NCBI RefSeq assembly: GCF_002939705.1
Contig: NZ_MDCB01000018.1
Location: 1-35,399, forward strand
Length of the DNA stretch: 35,399 nucleotides
From: Xanthomonas albilineans
GTDB taxonomy: Bacteria > Pseudomonadota > Gammaproteobacteria > Xanthomonadales > Xanthomonadaceae
Direction: 5' to 3'
The notes under the pieces are model-generated. The model saw only the letters and a program-made list of their open reading frames with translations. It was not told the origin of the DNA and did no database searches. The position numbers and the translations under genes were made by a program. This document shows positions 6,720 through 14,615 of this stretch, one piece after another; position 1 is the first letter of the stretch, and every line of letters starts with the position of its first letter.

Positions 6720-7203
6720 CCGCAATCCAACCGACAGCACCAGACGACTCACAATGCGCGATGCGGTGGCGATATCCCGCGACACCATCATGCGGCTTAT
6801 CCAGTCCGCAGCTTAGAGTAGCTAACAAAACTACTGCGTCGCTGTCGTGGATGCCAACCGCAATAAGAAAATCGAAACCGCTAACGTGCTTGTGCTCATT
6901 GCGTTGCTCTGCGTTGCACGGATCCTGTGGTGCGATGGGTTATCTTCTCTATACCCGCGCCAGTGATGAATCGATCAACTTCGATTCGACGCACCAGGGT
7001 TCTCGCGTTTCATCCGCGTACAACGCAGAGGTCAAATCGTAGACGGGTGGACTTACAAGGCATGGCGTTTGTTCGACGGAAACACGCTCGGCGAGGAACG
7101 TCAGGAAGAAATCCTCGCCTTCGGCATCATGCGTTGCAGTTGAATCTTGAGGCCACCCAATCCAGACACTACCATCGGTGATAACGCCGTCGTTGCCTTT
7201 TTC
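6720..7203. other. 484-bp interval with a short decayed frame
   Basis: The interval lies between the MDR reductase and pcaR and holds no gene with a credible start. On the plus strand, 6970-7143 is open and reads protein-like sequence (QLRFDAPGFSRFIRVQRRGQ, then DGWTYKAWRLFDGN and GEERQEEILAFGIM). It has no start codon except a late ATG, and the codons just before it are two stops. It is probably the 3' remnant of a lost gene whose family I do not recognise. The rest (6720-6965) is less GC-rich and shows nothing definable apart from presumably holding the pcaR promoter near its right end. Confidence 0.35.
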
Positions 7204-8073
7204 ATGTCCGATTCTCCAGCTCCACCCCGTGTGCGCCGCAGCCCACGTACCCGCCCGTCAGCGACGACGCCGGAACACGGTCTGCCCGCGGAGCTGATGC
7301 GCCGCATCGGCGCCTGCGAAGGCGATCCGAATTTCATGACCTCGCTGGCGCGTGGCCTGGCGGTGCTCAGCGCGTTCGGTCAGCACAGCCGCGACGTCAG
7401 CATGGCCCAGCTCAGCGCCGACACCGGCATCCCCCGCGCGGCGGTGCGACGGGTGTTGTACACCCTGGAAAAGCTGGGCTACGTCGGCGTGCATGGTCGC
7501 GGTTATGTGCTGCTGCCACGCGCGCTGGGGATCGGCAGCGGCTATCTGTCCACTGCGGCACTGTCGGTGGCGGCACAGCCAGTGCTCGATGCACTGCGCG
7601 ACACGTTGCACGAGTCCTGCTCGTTGGGCGTGCTCGATGGCGACGATCTGTTGTACGTGGCACGCGCGGAGACGGTGCGGCTCATGTCGATCAGCCTGCG
7701 TGCGGGGAGCCGGCTACCGGCGTATTGCACCTCGATGGGACGGGTGCTGCTCGCCGCGCAACCACCTGACACCCTGCACAGTTATCTGGAGCGCAACCCG
7801 CTGCGTCCACGCACCGAGCGCACCATCACCGAGCGCGTGCCGTTCCAAACACTGCTCGAACGCGTGCAACGCGACGGCTATGCAATCGTGGATCAGGAAC
7901 TGGAGATCGGCCTGCGCTCGGTCGCGGTGCCGGTGAACAACCGTCAGGAACGCGTGGTCGCCGCGCTCAACGTCGGCACTTCAGTGTCGCGGATGACGCT
8001 AGGCCACCTGCAAAACAAAGTATTGCCTGCGCTGAAACACGCGGCGCAGCAGTTGCGCCTGTTGCTGGATTGA
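7204..8073 (+). CDS. pcaR: IclR-family regulator of protocatechuate genes, PcaR/PcaU type
   Basis: The 289-residue protein has an N-terminal winged helix (FMTSLARGLAVLSAF, then DTGIPRAAVRRVLYTLEKLG) and an IclR effector domain (ESCSLGVLDGDDLLYVAR, LPAYCTSMGRVLLA, GYAIVDQELEIGLRSVAVPV). The wording of these segments matches the PcaR/PcaU/PobR branch that senses beta-ketoadipate or protocatechuate and activates pca genes. The start is the ATG at 7204; no clear ribosome-binding site is visible, and a later start before the winged helix is possible. In related genomes pcaR lies next to the pca operon. Here it is separated from pcaC by the transport unit at 8157-13736. Two tandem candidate sites lie upstream of pcaI (21048-21082). 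Confidence 0.88.
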   Translation: MSDSPAPPRVRRSPRTRPSATTPEHGLPAELMRRIGACEGDPNFMTSLARGLAVLSAFGQHSRDVSMAQLSADTGIPRAAVRRVLYTLEKLGYVGVHGRGYVLLPRALGIGSGYLSTAALSVAAQPVLDALRDTLHESCSLGVLDGDDLLYVARAETVRLMSISLRAGSRLPAYCTSMGRVLLAAQPPDTLHSYLERNPLRPRTERTITERVPFQTLLERVQRDGYAIVDQELEIGLRSVAVPVNNRQERVVAALNVGTSVSRMTLGHLQNKVLPALKHAAQQLRLLLD

Positions 8074-8156
8074 CACCTCACCCGATATTGCGGCGACGAA
8101 GGCGGATGCAAGCTGTTAGCGCCGAAGTAAAAAGTCGGCCTTGGGCTGCTGCACCC

Positions 8157-9446
8157 TCAATCCGCAGGCCCGAACGCCGGCAGCTTTTTCAAGTCCTCCG
8201 CCGACAGGCCCCGCCGGTCCATGACGGCGGGCATGAAGAATTTCCGCCACCGCTGCTCGAATGCGTCTACCTGGTCCCGATACCGGAGCTGGCTCGCCGC
8301 GTCGGTGCCGGCCAGAAATTCGCCCCACAGCACCAGGGCCAGGCCCGGCGACACCCAGGCCCAGCGGTTGACGAAAGCAGCCTGCTCGGCGCGGCGCGCA
8401 TCGAACGATCGCGCGAGCGGCCCGAGTGCCGCTTCTTGGCCCAGCGCGCGTGCAACGAAGGTCGCAGGCCAGACGGCGGTAGCCGGTGCCTGCACACCGG
8501 GGTGTGCCGCGTACCAGGCTTTCGCCAGGTCTTGTTCGTGCGCTTCGCTTTCCTGCTGGGCTGTGCGGATCTGCACGATGGACAGCAGCCGGGAGGGCAT
8601 CGGCGCGGCGCGTTCTGCCGCCAGCGCCAGCGCAGCGGGCACTGCGAAGGTCAAGGCAAGCCAGAGACCCAACGCGGCCAGCATGCTGCTTGCGCCAGAG
8701 ACAGGTGCCCACGACAGGCATCCACCGAGCACGACCCACACCGACGTGAATACGGCCAGTGCGCCGATCCAGGCCAGCGTCACTGGCGCGTTCGAACCCG
8801 GATCCAGCAGCAGCGCCGGGAGCGTAGCCACCGCGGTGACGGCCCAGATGCAGAGGCAGCGCCAACCCAGCGCTGCGGCCACCAGGGGCCACATGCCGTG
8901 CGTCGACTGCACACGCAGCAGGCCGAGGCGACCGTGCTCCCGCTCTTCTTGCAGGAGGCCGCCGCACAGCACGAGCGCCACCAGCGGCAGGAGCAGCGCG
9001 ACCATGGCCGGTACGCCGGGCAGGCCGGTGTCGTTCAAAAGAGGATTGCGCAGAGGTCCCGGGTCCCGCAATTCGACCAGCCGGTTGTCGAGCGAAGCCT
9101 TCAGACGCGTGGGCAGCACCGAGAGCCGCTGCACACCCAAGCCCAGGCCTGCCTGGACCGGCATACGCGTGACACCGAGGTCGCCGCGGCCCAGCTCGTA
9201 AGCGGCGATCGCGGCGGCGGGGCCTGGCGGGGTTTGCACCTGCGCCGTTGCGGAGTCGATCGCGGCGGCTCTCGCTGCTGCATCCAGCGCGGCTGCAGAG
9301 CGCCATGCACGCGCGTCGAGCCCTGCGGAGACGGCCGAGGCCAGCAGAACCGCGAACAAAGCGCTCAGCGCGATCCACGCCAGGGGCTGTCGCCACAGCT
9401 TCGAACCTTCCGCGCGCCAGTAGTGCCGGGACGGGATCAGTTGCAT
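8157..9446 (-). CDS. ABC-2-type permease, second of a pair
   Basis: This 429-residue membrane protein has one N-terminal membrane segment (WIALSALFAVLLASAVSAGL), a periplasmic domain of about 110 residues, then a block of five hydrophobic segments (for example MVALLLPLVALVLCGGLL and LAALGLWLALTFAVPAAL) and a C-terminal soluble part followed by one more segment. QEEREHGRLGLLRVQ is the loop typical of ABC-2 exporters. The layout matches the DUF3526-containing permeases, judged from memory. The ATG at 9446 lies inside the 3' end of the preceding permease gene (10-nt overlap), so the pair should be made together as a heterodimer. It is the last gene of the receptor-ATPase-permease unit and converges on pcaR. 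Confidence 0.8.
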   Translation of the reverse strand: MQLIPSRHYWRAEGSKLWRQPLAWIALSALFAVLLASAVSAGLDARAWRSAAALDAAARAAAIDSATAQVQTPPGPAAAIAAYELGRGDLGVTRMPVQAGLGLGVQRLSVLPTRLKASLDNRLVELRDPGPLRNPLLNDTGLPGVPAMVALLLPLVALVLCGGLLQEEREHGRLGLLRVQSTHGMWPLVAAALGWRCLCIWAVTAVATLPALLLDPGSNAPVTLAWIGALAVFTSVWVVLGGCLSWAPVSGASSMLAALGLWLALTFAVPAALALAAERAAPMPSRLLSIVQIRTAQQESEAHEQDLAKAWYAAHPGVQAPATAVWPATFVARALGQEAALGPLARSFDARRAEQAAFVNRWAWVSPGLALVLWGEFLAGTDAASQLRYRDQVDAFEQRWRKFFMPAVMDRRGLSAEDLKKLPAFGPAD

Positions 9447-10849
9447 GGGTCGAGTCTCCGCGAACCCAGCCACAGCACGCCGACGACCGCCACGAACCAT
9501 GCCACCAGCACGGCGCCGTCGGCAACGACCGCACGCAGCGAAAATCCCAGGCCGGGGTCTGCGTACCGCCAGGGCGGGATCGCCTGCCACTGCAGGTCGC
9601 CGGCGTATTTGTCTTCGAGCGAGGTGACGCCGCGGGTCGCGGCCAAGTCCCATTCGTCCATCCGCGTAGTGAACTGCTGCCGGTACGCTTCGGCCGATTC
9701 CTCGAAATGCTGGCGGTGCGCCAGGTCGGCGCCGGCCAGCGCGCTGGCCACGGACCGCATCGCGGCGTAGGGGCTCAAGACCGTGCACCACCGCAGAAGG
9801 CCTTGCTGTGCCAACTGCGCATCTTCGAGTTCCTTGAACCGCAGCGCGTGTACCTTGGTCGAATACGCATCCCGGAACAGGCGCCGTTTGGCGTTCGCGC
9901 CGAACGGTAGGTCTTCGAGGCGGGCCACCCGATATTCGGCCAGCAGGTGCGCATCGAAAGCCCCGAGCCGTGCTGCGGCTGCGCCGTCTCCGGGCAGACC
10001 GTTCTCGATACCGTCGTGGATGCCCGACCAGAACTGTTCGCCCGTCGGGAGGGGGTCGATGCGCTCCACCCACGATGCCGCCAACCGGGGAACGATGAAG
10101 ACAGCCGCGACCCAGAACGCGATCATGACCAGCAGCGCCGCGCGCGAGCTGGTGCAGAAAGCCGAGACGAGCACGGTGCCCGCGGCCCAGGTCGCGTAAT
10201 AGAGCAAGAGGGCTGCGCCCAGCACCGCCGCCGCCGGCATGCCACGCGGCTCCGCCACCATGCCCCAGGCGCTCACGACCAGGGCCGGGGCGAGCACCAG
10301 GGCCAACCCGGCACACAACCCCAGCCACTTGCCCAGGAGCAACGGAGTCGCGCGCACGCCACAGGCATGCAACATGCGCAGCGTGCCGAGTTCGCGCTCC
10401 TGCGTCACGGTGCTGTGCCCCAACACCGCGATGAGCAGCGGGACCAGCGCGAGCAGAACGAATGCGGGCGTGAAGGCCCCCAGTCCCAGCGCGGGCGCTG
10501 CATCGGCCGCGGGCATGAACATCGCCATGTTGCGTTTGTGAGGCTCCAGCCAGAGGGCCTGGCCTGTCTGTGCATCCACGCCCGGTTCTACGCTGGAAAG
10601 TGCGGTCCTGGGCTTGAATGCATAGAGGCCGAAATGAGCTGCGCGGTGCGGATTCTTCTCACCCTGGTGGTCCCACTGGTCGCGGACCGCATGTTCTACC
10701 GCGCTGCGTTCCTGTTCGGCCTTATCGCGCCGATCGGCTGCCGTGAACAGCATCGCGATGAAGAGCAGCGCCAACGTCAGGCCCAGGCCCCACAGCCTGC
10801 CGTCCCGGAGCAGTGCACGGGTTTCCTTGCGCGCGATCGAGGCCATCAT
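9437..10849 (-). CDS. ABC-2-type permease, first of a pair
   Basis: This 470-residue membrane protein has the same plan as the next gene: an N-terminal segment (LWGLGLTLALLFIAMLF), a soluble loop of about 130 residues, a core of hydrophobic segments (AFVLLALVPLLIAVLG, LCAGLALVLAPALVVSAWG, AALLVMIAFWVAAVFIVPRL), a large soluble domain and a last membrane segment (VLVAWFVAVVGVLWLG). VTQERELGTLRMLHACG is the cytoplasmic loop shared by ABC-2 exporters. The ATG at 10849 overlaps the ATPase stop (ATGA). With the ATPase and the second permease it should form a complete inner-membrane transporter; the export direction is inferred from the family. Confidence 0.8.
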   Translation of the reverse strand: MMASIARKETRALLRDGRLWGLGLTLALLFIAMLFTAADRRDKAEQERSAVEHAVRDQWDHQGEKNPHRAAHFGLYAFKPRTALSSVEPGVDAQTGQALWLEPHKRNMAMFMPAADAAPALGLGAFTPAFVLLALVPLLIAVLGHSTVTQERELGTLRMLHACGVRATPLLLGKWLGLCAGLALVLAPALVVSAWGMVAEPRGMPAAAVLGAALLLYYATWAAGTVLVSAFCTSSRAALLVMIAFWVAAVFIVPRLAASWVERIDPLPTGEQFWSGIHDGIENGLPGDGAAAARLGAFDAHLLAEYRVARLEDLPFGANAKRRLFRDAYSTKVHALRFKELEDAQLAQQGLLRWCTVLSPYAAMRSVASALAGADLAHRQHFEESAEAYRQQFTTRMDEWDLAATRGVTSLEDKYAGDLQWQAIPPWRYADPGLGFSLRAVVADGAVLVAWFVAVVGVLWLGSRRLDPCN

Positions 10850-11583
10850 CGCGCCATCGCCTCCGGCGTGCCCCGCGCATGCGCGAGGTAGATGCGCTCG
10901 AGTTCGGCGTGGGCGACATCCGCGGTTTCGAACTCTGCGACCAACCGACCCTCGCACAGGATGCCGATCTGGTCGGCGACCTGGAGTGCGTTGAAGAGAT
11001 CGTGCGTCGCCATCAGAATGGCCATGCCCCCCGCCTTGGCCGCAAGGATGCCTTGTGCGAATTCGTTAGATGCCGACGGATCGAGGCCCGAGGTCGGCTC
11101 GTCGAGGAGCATCGCCGTGGCCTTGCGAGCCCGGGCGATGGCCAGGCCGACCTTTTGCCGCATGCCCTTGGAGTAAACCGCCACCCGGCGGTCGTGCGCG
11201 TCGCCGGCCAGACCGGTGCCGTCGAGCAGGGCCCTGGCCTGTGGCTTGGTCAGCGCGACTTCCGACAGGGCGCAGAAATACCGCAGGTTCTCCACGCCCG
11301 ACAGATAGGGATACAACGCGACGTTTTCGGGCAAGTACGCCAGGCGCGCACGCGCCGCTTCGGGTTGCCGCGACGCATCGATCCCGTCCACCAGAGCGCA
11401 GCCCTGCGATGCCGGAACAAAGCCCAGAAAGGCGTTCAGCGTCGTGGTCTTGCCTGCACCGTTACCGCCGAGGAGCGCATACACGCGGCCTGCGGGAATG
11501 CGCAAGTCCAACGCGACGAGCGTGTCTTTGCCGCCCCGGCGAACCGTGAGCTTGCGTGCCTGAAGCGTCGCGTCGTCGCCCAT
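10846..11583 (-). CDS. ABC transporter ATP-binding protein
   Basis: This 245-residue ATPase is complete: Walker A GGNGAGKTTT, Q-loop region LAYLPENVALYPYLSG, signature YSKGMRQKVGLAIARA, Walker B AMLLDEPTSGLD and the switch His in MATHDLFNAL. The domain type is that of ABC-2 export systems (CcmA/NatA-like). The start at 11583 was chosen because its ATG shares one base with the stop of the TonB-dependent receptor (TGATG) and begins just before the first conserved strand. The frame extends upstream without a supported start. It powers the two permeases encoded directly after it. Confidence 0.9.
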   Translation of the reverse strand: MGDDATLQARKLTVRRGGKDTLVALDLRIPAGRVYALLGGNGAGKTTTLNAFLGFVPASQGCALVDGIDASRQPEAARARLAYLPENVALYPYLSGVENLRYFCALSEVALTKPQARALLDGTGLAGDAHDRRVAVYSKGMRQKVGLAIARARKATAMLLDEPTSGLDPSASNEFAQGILAAKAGGMAILMATHDLFNALQVADQIGILCEGRLVAEFETADVAHAELERIYLAHARGTPEAMAR

Positions 11584-13736
11584 CAGAAGAAATAACGCAG
11601 CGTGGCACCGACCGTGGTTTTCGGAACCGGCGAAACCAACAGCCCTGCCGCCGTACCGTAGGCGATTTCCGATCCGTAACGTTGGGGTTGGAACGTCGCG
11701 TACAACGAGCACTGGGCGGAACCATAGTCGTAGGTCGACCGTACGTCGTACCGTGTGTAAAGCGGCATGGTTCGTTCCTGCGTCGTGGGTGTCCCGACGT
11801 AGTAGGGGATGTCGTCGATCAGGGACGCGTCGGCATTGAGCGTCATCTGGCCCGCGCCGAGGCCGAACTTGTGCTGCGCACCCGCCTTGAGCTGCACGCC
11901 GGGAACGGAGAGCTTCGCGCCGGTATTGGCGGCCGGGTTGTTGACCTTGGCCTCCAGGATGCGGCCGACGCTCGCATACACGCTCGATGCGGTGCCGAGC
12001 TTCCAGCGCGTCTCGATTTCCACGCCCTTACGCGTGGTATCGCCGACTGACTTGAACGAGCCGTCGGCCTGCGAGACGATCTCGTCGCTGTTCAGAATGT
12101 AATAGGCCGCTCCCGAAACCATCACGTCCGTCGCGGGATTCGCGGTGAATCCCATGTCGTAGGAACGCACCTTGCTCGGCTTGACCAGGCTGATGACGCC
12201 GCCGGGCGCCCCGAGCGGTCCGGGCGCGCCGCTGCTGCTGATTTGCTCGGTGGCCGGCGACCGCATCCCCTCGGCGACGTTGGCGAAGAGCTCCAGCTGC
12301 GGCAGCGCCGTCCAAGAAGCACCCAGCTTGGGCGTGAAGACGCCTTTCCGGTACCCCGTGCTGGCCGCTGGAAGTTTCAGGTTGGCGATGTCGTAGTCGA
12401 AGCGGTCGTACCGGGCGCCAGCGCTCAGTTTGAGGTCCCGTGCCACCCTCCACTGCCCCTGCGCGAAAAAGCCGTAGGTGACCAAATCGAGGTCGACGTC
12501 GTTCGGGTAGTTCGCGGAAGGCAGCCGGTTCACGTAGATGCGGCGGAAGGCGCTTCCAGAGTCTTTGCGCAGTTCCGTTCCCATCACCAAGCTGGCGTCG
12601 CCGAAGACGGTGTTGTGGTAGACGCGGGCACCATACATGTCGCGGTCGTCCTCGCCCAGGAGATGTCGGGTCGCACTCGTCGCGACGGCGCGCTGGCGGT
12701 AGAGGCTCTCGCCGTAGGCGGTCGCGTACCAGCCCTCTTCCCCGGTCGTCGGCGCCCGATTCACGACCACGCTGGTGCGCCGCGCAACCCCGAAACCCGG
12801 GTTGTTGAATTGGGTCGAGCGCGGGTCCAGGCCTTTCTGCAGGTCGGAGAGCGCCAGGTAGCCAGCGGCCTGGAAATCCGACACATAGCGTGTCAGGCGC
12901 AGGCTGTATTTTCCGCTGGCTTGTTGCGTGGACAGCTTCCAGGAGAGGCTGTCCCGATCGGTATTGGACGCATAGCGGTAGCCATCGTTGCGATACCGGT
13001 CGGCCACCAGCAGGGAGTCGACTTCCGAGAGCTTATTGGACAGCACCAGAGTCGTGCGCCTGAGCCCGTAGCGCTCGGCGCTGACGCTCACACTCGACGG
13101 GGTCGCGTCGCCGCCGTCGCGGGTACGGATGTCGACCGCGCCGGCCCGGTTCTGGTCGCCATAGAGTGCCGAGACGGGGCCCTTGATGACGTCGATGCCG
13201 CCGATCAACTCGGGTGTCAGCCATTCGAGAAACACCGCACCGTGGCTAGCGATGCTCTGGATCGACGGGATATTCTGCGGAACACCATCCACGTACACGG
13301 CCGTGTCGGCTCCATGCGTGCCCTGGGTCGCGAAGCCGCGCATCCGGAAACCGTTGCCGGTATCCCCCTGGTCGATGTTGTTGGCCAGGACACCCGGCAC
13401 CCGGCGAAATATATTCGAAACGTCGCGACCGACATTGGTGTTGGCGATGTCTTCCTGACCGACGTGCTGCACGGTGGTGGGCAGGGCCTGCGGGTTGAGG
13501 GTGATGTCTGACCGGTCGCCGACTTGGCGGGAGTCGCTGTCGGAACCGTCGAGCACCCGCACCGAGGGCAGCGTGCCGGCCGCCGTGGTGGTGATGGCCG
13601 ATGGCGCGGTGGCCTCCGCGCTCTGGGCGTGGGCGGTAAGGGCAGTGCCCATCGTCGCCGTCAACACGGCGACGGCGAGCAGGGGGCGGGACAACGGCTG
13701 CGGCGATGGGCTGTTGGCGAGGAAACTGTTTTTCAT
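11583..13736 (-). CDS. TonB-dependent siderophore-type outer-membrane receptor
   Basis: This 717-residue receptor begins with a signal peptide ending in AHAQS. The plug domain follows (ITLNPQALPTTVQHVGQEDI, FRRVPGVLANNI, FRMRGFATQGTHGADTAVYV, GGIDVIKGPVSALYG), then a 22-strand-type barrel ending in the terminal Phe motif GATLRYFF. The class is that of FhuA/FpvA-like receptors; the ligand cannot be told. The ATG at 13736 was chosen for the signal peptide; the ribosome-binding site is weak and the leader AT-rich. It is the first gene of a unit whose later genes are an ABC-2-type ATPase and two permeases. That is unusual, since siderophore receptors normally pair with importers. The leader holds a perfect hairpin and the upstream border an IS21 relic, so acquisition by transfer is likely. 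Confidence 0.88.
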   Translation of the reverse strand: MKNSFLANSPSPQPLSRPLLAVAVLTATMGTALTAHAQSAEATAPSAITTTAAGTLPSVRVLDGSDSDSRQVGDRSDITLNPQALPTTVQHVGQEDIANTNVGRDVSNIFRRVPGVLANNIDQGDTGNGFRMRGFATQGTHGADTAVYVDGVPQNIPSIQSIASHGAVFLEWLTPELIGGIDVIKGPVSALYGDQNRAGAVDIRTRDGGDATPSSVSVSAERYGLRRTTLVLSNKLSEVDSLLVADRYRNDGYRYASNTDRDSLSWKLSTQQASGKYSLRLTRYVSDFQAAGYLALSDLQKGLDPRSTQFNNPGFGVARRTSVVVNRAPTTGEEGWYATAYGESLYRQRAVATSATRHLLGEDDRDMYGARVYHNTVFGDASLVMGTELRKDSGSAFRRIYVNRLPSANYPNDVDLDLVTYGFFAQGQWRVARDLKLSAGARYDRFDYDIANLKLPAASTGYRKGVFTPKLGASWTALPQLELFANVAEGMRSPATEQISSSGAPGPLGAPGGVISLVKPSKVRSYDMGFTANPATDVMVSGAAYYILNSDEIVSQADGSFKSVGDTTRKGVEIETRWKLGTASSVYASVGRILEAKVNNPAANTGAKLSVPGVQLKAGAQHKFGLGAGQMTLNADASLIDDIPYYVGTPTTQERTMPLYTRYDVRSTYDYGSAQCSLYATFQPQRYGSEIAYGTAAGLLVSPVPKTTVGATLRYFF

Positions 13737-13758
13737 GGAAATATAAATAATTTTTCCT

Positions 13759-13782
13759 GCGGCCATTTTTATAAATGGCCGC
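13759..13782. promoter_or_regulatory. Perfect hairpin in the receptor leader
   Basis: GCGGCCATTT (13759-13768) and AAATGGCCGC (13773-13782) form a perfect 10-bp stem with the loop TTAT. It lies 23 bp upstream of the receptor ATG, in AT-rich DNA unlike its surroundings. In the transcript it would sit just before the weak ribosome-binding site, so it may control translation. As DNA it could be an operator. No Fur-box match is evident. Confidence 0.55.
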
Positions 13783-13903
13783 GCAATAGTGATCAAACTG
13801 ACGGCAATTGCTACTGCAAGCCAGACCAAGAGTAAATCGGAAATATATGCGCCCCAAAATCCCTTAAATTATAAAGATTTCTGGCAACCTCAACAACAAC
13901 CTC

Positions 13904-14140
13904 AAACTGACCCACCTTGATCGCTGATCAGCAACTTAGAGTCGCCACGCCCACATCGTGCAGATCAGCGGGGAGAACTACCGATTGAAGGACAAACGCA
14001 AGGCCGGACAGACGGCAAAGAGGGCGACGGCGGCGGCATGACCGGCGTAGTGCTGCTGGGCGGCTAAGGGCTTTGCCCTGCGCAGCCGAGCAGCGCGATG
14101 AAAAAGACCCTGGTGGGTCAGATTTAAATCGGCGTTGACA
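13904..14140 (+). mobile_element. IS21-family remnant: istB tail and terminal repeats
   Basis: On the plus strand 13940-14041 reads the end of an IstB-like ATPase: HAHIVQISGENYRLKDKRKA followed by a basic tail and a stop, in frame but preceded by a stop at 13937. A 10-bp repeat CTGACCCACC (13907-13916) occurs inverted at 14112-14121, inside a longer end-like sequence (ACCCTGGTGGGTCAGATTT and onward to about 14140). Multiple short terminal repeats and an istB gene ending close to the right end are features of IS21-family elements. Most of the element, including istA, is missing. It marks the border between the receptor/ABC unit and the pca operon. Family assignment is from memory of IstB C-termini. 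Confidence 0.6.
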
Positions 14141-14180
14141 GCCAGCACAACGCGGATGGCAACACGCCCGCGGGCGTGGG

Positions 14181-14573
14181 TCACTCCGTGCCTTCGGCCG
14201 CCTGTTCGGCCAGGATCGGCGCGGCCAGGGCGAACGCATGATTGGCGGCGGGCACACCGCAGTAGATCGCCGCCTGCAACAGCACCTCTTTGATTTCGTC
14301 GGCACTGACACCGTTGTTGCGCGCCGCGCGCACATGTAATTTGAATTCCTCGTCGTGGCCACACGCCACCATCATCGCCAGGGTCAACAGCGAGCGGGTG
14401 TGCCGCGGCAATCCCTCGCGGGTCCACACCGTGCCCCACGCGGTACGGGTGATGAAATCCTGGAATTCCTCGGTAAACGGCGTGCGTGCGGCTAGCGCGC
14501 GGTCCACGTGTGCATCGCCGAGGACGGCGCGGCGCACCCGCAAGCCGGCCTCATAGCGCTCGTTCTCGTCCAT
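14181..14573 (-). CDS. pcaC: 4-carboxymuconolactone decarboxylase
   Basis: This 130-residue cytosolic enzyme decarboxylates gamma-carboxymuconolactone to beta-ketoadipate enol-lactone in the protocatechuate branch. The start at 14573 has GAGGAG 8-13 nt upstream. The sequence shows the AhpD-like fold signatures of PcaC: RYEAGLRVRRAVLGDAHVD, FQDFITRTAWGTVW, SLLTLAMMVACGHDEEFKLH and EIKEVLLQAAIYCGVPAANH. The length is typical for a stand-alone PcaC, which some bacteria fuse to PcaD. It is the last gene of the pca operon, 42 bp after pcaD. Beyond its stop lies the IS21 relic. Confidence 0.95.
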   Translation of the reverse strand: MDENERYEAGLRVRRAVLGDAHVDRALAARTPFTEEFQDFITRTAWGTVWTREGLPRHTRSLLTLAMMVACGHDEEFKLHVRAARNNGVSADEIKEVLLQAAIYCGVPAANHAFALAAPILAEQAAEGTE

Positions 14574-14615
14574 CGGTATAGCTCCTCGACAGTGGAAAAC
14601 ACACACGCCGCGCGG

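Follow-up and report, generated by a model that had tools for sequence, protein, structure and literature searches.

An apparently acquired TonB-dependent receptor and DUF3526 transporter cassette in the pcaR-pcaC gap of Xanthomonas albilineans, a candidate metal-starvation uptake unit

The window analyzed here is a 35,399-nt stretch of Xanthomonas albilineans DNA (NCBI RefSeq assembly GCF_002939705.1, contig NZ_MDCB01000018.1, positions 1 to 35,399 of the forward strand), in which the gap between pcaR and pcaC is filled by four overlapping genes on the minus strand, referred to below as the cassette. They encode a TonB-dependent receptor (TBDR), an ATP-binding cassette (ABC) ATPase, and two ABC-2 permeases with DUF3526 (perm2 and perm1), and Pfam and NCBIfam searches confirmed this gene content, which the first-pass annotation had proposed. 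The receptor gene (11583-13736) encodes 717 aa with a signal-peptide-like stretch at the N terminus, recognized by eye in the translation, and both its plug (PF07715) and its barrel (PF00593) scored over the cut-off; TBDR folds in the PDB matched its structural model (pLDDT 79). The ATPase (10846-11583; PF00005, 1e-24) shows Walker A, signature, and Walker B motifs by eye in its translation, and perm2 (9437-10849; PF12040, 2e-30; PF12679, 3e-21) and perm1 (8157-9446; PF12040, 7e-35; PF12679, 1e-6) complete the set, all three families being over their cut-offs, which places the unit among DUF3526 ABC-2 transporters. Adjoining cassette genes overlap by 10, 4, and 1 nt. The first-pass annotation called the unit an exporter; this label would follow from the ABC-2 type, and the direction of transport is only assumed.

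On the left, the native flank is formed by pcaR (7147-8073, plus strand), a regulator of the PcaR/PcaU/PobR family (TIGR02431, 312.6 bits; cut-off, 284.75), followed by a junction (8074-8156) without a match below E 0.01 in the sister genome or other genomes of the genus. On the right, native sequence resumes at 14159, as judged by blastn to the sister genome, and runs through 14606 with pcaC (14181-14606, minus strand; TIGR02425, 195.5 bits; cut-off, 155.7); further pca genes (pcaD, pcaB, pcaH, and pcaF) lie on this side. pcaR and pcaC are convergent, so that their 3′ ends point at the insert. Nothing ties the cassette to aromatics. Rfam gave no match in the window at the gathering threshold.

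The receptor gene is preceded by a leader (13737-13889, minus strand), which the first-pass annotation had rightly described as AT rich: GC content is 39% over 13737-13900, compared with 64-65% in the flanks. A 24-bp dyad with perfect 10-nt arms (GCGGCCATTT/AAATGGCCGC) lies at 13759-13782, just upstream of the receptor start. By eye, a TATAAT (13873-13868) stands 17 nt from a TTGTTG (13896-13891) and forms a candidate promoter with it; a promoter scan found no site above threshold at either edge, this pair included. The TTGTTG lies within the end of an insertion sequence (IS) of the IS21 family, and the receptor leader is now framed by an IS21 end.

Two IS21 elements contributed to the relic on the pcaC side. 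Element A (13890-13942, minus strand, facing the receptor gene) is the right end, 3′ of istB, of an element resembling another Xanthomonas plasmid IS21 element (96%), with 93% identity to a copy in the host genome (G000:C6). Element B (13945-14141, plus strand) runs in the opposite direction and is ISXci1-like; its positions 13945-14134 match the istB 3′ end and right end of ISXci1 at 79%, and the element is 81% identical to a host copy (G000:C3). The arms 13890-13916 and 14112-14138 form inverted repeats (27 nt, 74%), and one of the two ends lacks its terminal TG. Although the ends and the istB tail identify the family, no istA and no intact istB remain. The istB tail with IS21-like ends reported in the first-pass annotation is therefore real, but it had been taken for one element, whereas the relic consists of the right ends of two different elements, both facing outwards, with their middles gone.

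Comparison of the pcaR-pcaC interval across the genus showed that the cassette site is nearly empty in the sister genome. From pcaR to pcaC, the sister (G012) aligns with the window apart from one place, at which its 48 bp (L119 2276 to 2325) correspond to 6,085 bp in the window (8073 to 14159). Among the 19 other genus genomes, pcaC was matched in 13 (E 1e-20) and pcaR in 12 (E 1e-40); 12 genomes held both genes, which lay 77-1,780 bp apart in 11 and far apart in one (G019), in agreement with the earlier claim that they are normally close neighbours. A different insert of 1.8 kb, encoding by eye a major facilitator superfamily (MFS) transporter and an HxlR-type regulator, occupies the same gap in five relatives (G006, G008, G009, G010, and G013; L120-L124), and in G005 and G011 the gap measures only some 250 bp. 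Since some relatives hold this other insert and others a short gap, the interval is a variable slot, bounded by convergent genes, in which different transport cassettes have settled in the genus, and this bears out the idea of a landing site. The pcaC match of the sister (L106, G012:C1:3344349-3344768) contains one in-frame TGA.

The closest relatives of the cassette lie outside the genus. In the 19 other genus genomes, the best receptor match per genome had 25-29% identity with E no better than 1e-16, and short pieces reached at most 35%. A perm2 search of 395 genomes (the window's own included, drawn from a larger group) found relatives in the window's family at 28-35% in 83 other genomes and none closer at E 1e-20. 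The same four genes in the same order were found on the Comamonas endophytica megaplasmid NZ_CP106882 with 72% DNA identity over 5.3 kb, and about 45% of the query aligned with a Variovorax plasmid at 67-68%. A receptor search of a genome-contig collection, which may lack records close to the window's genome, gave 46 matches of 50-71% identity, all outside the window's family. They come from Burkholderiales and the Pseudomonas group, with a single Zoogloea; one match of the Pseudomonas group is labelled Pantoea and groups with Pseudomonas in the tree. In a receptor tree of 49 rows (the window, 2 plasmid loci, and 46 genome-contig loci; quick method, SH-aLRT support only, midpoint root), the window was sister to Comamonas/Acidovorax with support 100; this trio belongs to an 18-row set (support 90, drawn open) within the betaproteobacterial part of the tree, which has 33 rows and support 100.

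The near-empty sister site, the lack of a close copy in 19 genus genomes, and the nearest kin in Comamonadaceae argue for transfer, as the first-pass annotation had supposed. Composition was uninformative as a test of origin: the comparison of 8157-13736 with its flanks gave no foreign signal, the cassette having a GC content of 65-70% and a GC at third codon positions (GC3) of 0.80-0.83, close to or overlapping those of the flanks, as expected if the donor had a similar GC content. Horizontal acquisition of a Burkholderiales-type cassette is thus well supported by kinship, not by composition. Transfer by itself is ordinary, and the interest of the locus lies in its wider family and in lasso-type relatives.

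Gene order and promoter boxes were compared in 48 loci carrying close kin of the receptor, some of them with short flanks. The order TBDR-ATPase-perm2-perm1 is kept in 18 loci (one of which, L059, ends inside perm1); in 8 more, all of them Oxalobacteraceae, the genes stand in another arrangement within about 4 kb; no cassette order was recognized in the remaining 22, of which 16 form the Pseudomonas group. An exact GTTATN3ATAAC box occurs in the 390-nt stretch over the receptor start in 10 of the 48 homologs, all belonging to the Pseudomonas group (10/16), and with one mismatch allowed the box is found in 13 of these 16 receptors. The Zur box consensus in PMC10393844 is GWWAYWNNNTWHCR.

The receptor neighbours matched a Zur-regulon-like set in 20 of the 48 loci, a count that has no random-locus control and a set that was chosen from the neighbours themselves: Fur family, CobW/COG0523, ThrRS, amidohydrolase (taken as dihydroorotase), CysRS, PTPS, DksA, and DUF2946. 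A Fur-family gene adjoins the receptor in L060, L066, L067, L072, L073, and L102 (by Pfam in L060 and L072, by tblastn in the rest), and CobW occurs with aminoacyl-tRNA synthetase (aaRS), amidohydrolase, PTPS, or DksA genes in L081, L084, L090, L098, and L104. Some of the neighbour matches are weak (CobW, 36% in L059 and L067; Fur, 34% in L098 and 32% in L104; DksA, 40% in L094), and a DUF2946 neighbour is no proof of zinc. Zinc-starvation genes listed in two papers include COG0523, pyrC2 or dihydroorotase, and TBDRs, with dksA also named in PMC6103462 and 6-carboxytetrahydropterin synthase in PMC10563805. Upstream of the Burkholderiales-type homologs, a dyad search returned TTGCAA-type dyads (AATGCAACTCAATTGCATT in L074; similar ones in L067, L070, L072, and L079), possibly the operator of a Burkholderiales metal regulator. 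This type would correspond to a Burkholderiales Zur motif and was not used as evidence.

The wider ABC family was represented by 52 loci of the window's family, which cover 53 of the 88 perm2 matches other than the window's own. A TBDR match lay within the fetched stretch in 43 of them, TBDRs being common in that family. These loci (804 kb) contain 40 Zur-box-like sites with at most one mismatch, 29 of which fall within 45.8 kb of stretches before the TBDR, ATPase, cobW, or lasso genes of the ABC unit. A box stands before the TBDR, ATPase, or cobW gene in 20 of the 52 loci, and CobW adjoins the ABC unit in L153, L158, L171, L187, and L198. In L151 (G389), two DUF3526 ABC units point apart; TBDR genes lie both between the units and next to them, and the stretch between the units holds an exact Zur-like box.

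Lasso-type genes follow the ABC unit in nine of the 52 loci (L149 in G019, L156, L163, L183, L189, L192, L194, L195, and L196), where clusters of a small open reading frame (ORF), B, and C are convergent with the TBDR and DUF3526 ABC unit. Pfam recognized Transglut_core3 in L149 and L156 and Asn_synthase in L149, the other loci being assigned by tblastn, and the NCBIfam macrolactam cyclase model stayed below its cut-off in L149 and L156. All nine loci carry a small ORF ending in AH[NGS]HGT...TTSP. A Zur-like box lies on the precursor side in eight of the nine (not in L163) and before the TBDR or unit in eight of the nine (not in L189). With a precursor cut site (Thr at -2) and ring predicted from lasso rules, the nine loci are candidate lasso-peptide zincophores with His-x-His in the predicted ring.

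The receptor model matched many TBDRs in the PDB, PqqU first and FyuA, FecA, FoxA, and FhuA among the others, and 12 TBDR plug-region matches (CirA, FepA, PfeA, PirA, and PhuR) came from a PDB sequence search; because many TBDRs match, the fold does not name the ligand. For perm2, the PDB sequence search gave no match. Its model (pLDDT 79.5) had NosY (7o0y) as the best PDB match, with E 9e-4 and TM 0.72 by target; this was the only match below 0.001, and ranks 2-10 were further NosDFY chains. Structure alignments of 36 and 18 rows were chosen from the fetched loci. In 18 aligned perm2 sequences, H68, H72, E102, and H104 were invariant; all four fall in the loop that separates the first two long helices and that would face the periplasm.

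Taken together, these results suggest that the cassette is probably a horizontally acquired, Burkholderiales-type metal-starvation uptake unit sitting in the variable pcaR-pcaC slot, with zinc or a zinc-ligand complex as its most likely substrate. Among the metals, zinc ranks first, at odds slightly better than even, and iron comes next. Judging from its family, the receptor would depend on TonB to carry a scarce metal, or a complex of the metal with a ligand, through the outer membrane. At the inner membrane, the ATPase and the two DUF3526 permeases would form an ABC-2 complex that handles the metal or the ligand, as suggested by the NosY-like fold, the His loop, and the co-occurrence; this complex might either release the metal or return the emptied ligand. 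Because no ligand synthesis was recognized nearby, the window copy would depend on free metal or on ligands supplied by neighbours.

The window copy itself is probably not under Zur, since no box stands at its promoter: an exact Zur box was absent from the 900 bp upstream of its receptor, the best match nearby having 3 mismatches, and no Zur, Fur, or TGCAAC-type box was found upstream. A single match to the loose 14-nt consensus, which covers the receptor start codon on the opposite strand, was taken as chance. The host encodes two Fur-family proteins, the second of which was read as Zur by eye, and its genome has one palindromic TGTTATN3ATAAC site, at C7:113130 outside the window. An ORF near this site encodes by eye a PepSY-type protein.

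Apart from the missing box in the window, several findings weigh against an assignment to zinc and uptake. The exact box was not found in the 32 non-Pseudomonas kin loci, including all those with both receptor and ABC genes and the nearest kin, Comamonas and Acidovorax, and none of the 16 Pseudomonas-group receptors had ABC genes within the fetched flanks; therefore, the Zur line and the ABC line meet only via the wider ABC family. In that family, 32 of the 52 loci lack a box at the unit promoter, the stretches fetched for 9 of the 52 gave no TBDR match, and the TBDRs present are far from the window receptor (about 22-31% where they match at all). The box density of 0.63 per kb in unit-upstream stretches, versus 0.0145 per kb, is descriptive, because these stretches were defined after the site list was known and the loci are related to one another rather than independent. 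Upstream of several Massilia homologs there are Fur-box-like dyads instead, which leaves room for iron. The NosY match is weak (TM 0.42 by query at the E value given above), and at the invariant perm2 residues the model has pLDDT 52-56 in the blocks around H68 and H72 and below 50 in the segment with E102 and H104 (92 to 123). Regarding origin, the receptor tree flags the window row among long branches, and the genome-contig search finds close relatives only.

Those Massilia dyads would also fit an iron xenosiderophore receptor paired with an ABC-2 pump for siderophore recycling or export. The siderophore receptor model TIGR01783 gave the receptor's top NCBIfam score, below its cut-off (131.2 versus 223.5), and FyuA, FecA, FoxA, and FhuA are among its fold matches; the Zur boxes on Pseudomonas-group homologs, the CobW, aaRS, and Fur-family neighbours, which fit zinc starvation, and the absence of any siderophore biosynthesis gene among the four cassette genes make this account rather unlikely. 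It is quite improbable that the ABC unit exports a peptide (a toxin, lasso-like peptide, or bacteriocin) or gives resistance, with the receptor as partner or target. PADLOC returned only ATPase-type matches in the window, no lasso B or C gene was found in the window or its 48 kin loci, so that the window holds no lasso-peptide cluster, and one search of the host, run without a positive control, found no C gene; in favour of a peptide are the nine loci adjoining lasso-type B and C genes and the nearest families of the ATPase, which include DrrA and a lantibiotic-protection ATPase, both far below cut-off.

The first-pass annotation had further counted the IS21 relic among its signs of transfer. 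Two IS21 right ends do lie at the pcaC edge, and yet a composite IS21-borne element that brought the cassette in is very unlikely. At the pcaR edge (8060-8178), no IS end was recognized, and below E 0.01 this stretch matched nothing but itself in 20 genus genomes; copies on both sides are thus lacking, no target duplication was seen by eye at the junctions, similar ends occur elsewhere (five places in the host genome and four in G012), and no intact IS21-flanked copy of the cassette was seen. Since the relic is on one side only and comes from two different elements, it records IS activity at the pcaC edge and not the vehicle of transfer, and it can have landed after the cassette. A native gene cluster lost from all relatives, with which the flank-like GC and GC3 would agree, can hardly be upheld given the short gap in the sister, the absence of a close receptor in 19/19 genus genomes, nearest kin found in another order, and the many independent losses needed.

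With the metal-starvation uptake unit as the preferred reading, the locus links DUF3526, a transporter family of unknown function whose name was found in no paper of the literature searched, to metal starvation via gene order, promoter boxes, and fold. More tentatively, and with considerable doubt, the DUF3526 ABC unit and TBDR may form an undescribed zincophore machine. In the nine loci, the ligand would be a Zur-controlled lasso peptide (core A-H-[NGS]-H-G-T...), and the NosFY-like ABC with its periplasmic His loop would strip the metal or recycle the ligand; the window would hold an acquired, Zur-free, receiver-only version using ligands made by others. No paper on a lasso zincophore was among the literature matches listed, and the lasso-type loci point to a testable class of ribosomal peptide zincophores.

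Among known systems, the C. endophytica cluster described above is one of the closest; it has a small hypothetical gene upstream (a DUF2946-like query without a Pfam hit), where the window has the AT-rich leader and IS21 ends. With ISXci1, the window shares the istB tail and terminal repeats, with only the right ends of two elements left. For Pseudomonas, PMC10393844 describes the Zur-regulated zinc TBDRs ZnuD, PA1922, PA2911, and ZrmA, which belong to the same receptor class; the likeness runs via the Zur boxes on Pseudomonas-group homologs, and the window receptor differs from the ZnuD type in having no Zur box. PMC11481552 describes an import-type ABC as the partner of PA2911-2914 and a MacB type for PA4063-4066. 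Both differ from the ABC-2 unit of the window. NosFY, as part of NosDFY, is an ABC machine for copper delivery to NosZ and for periplasmic metal handling. No NosD was found by Pfam among the four cassette genes, the part searched. NosDFY is the nearest solved fold of perm2, by a weak match, and the window unit is distinguished from it by two DUF3526 permeases, a long His-containing loop, and a TBDR partner.

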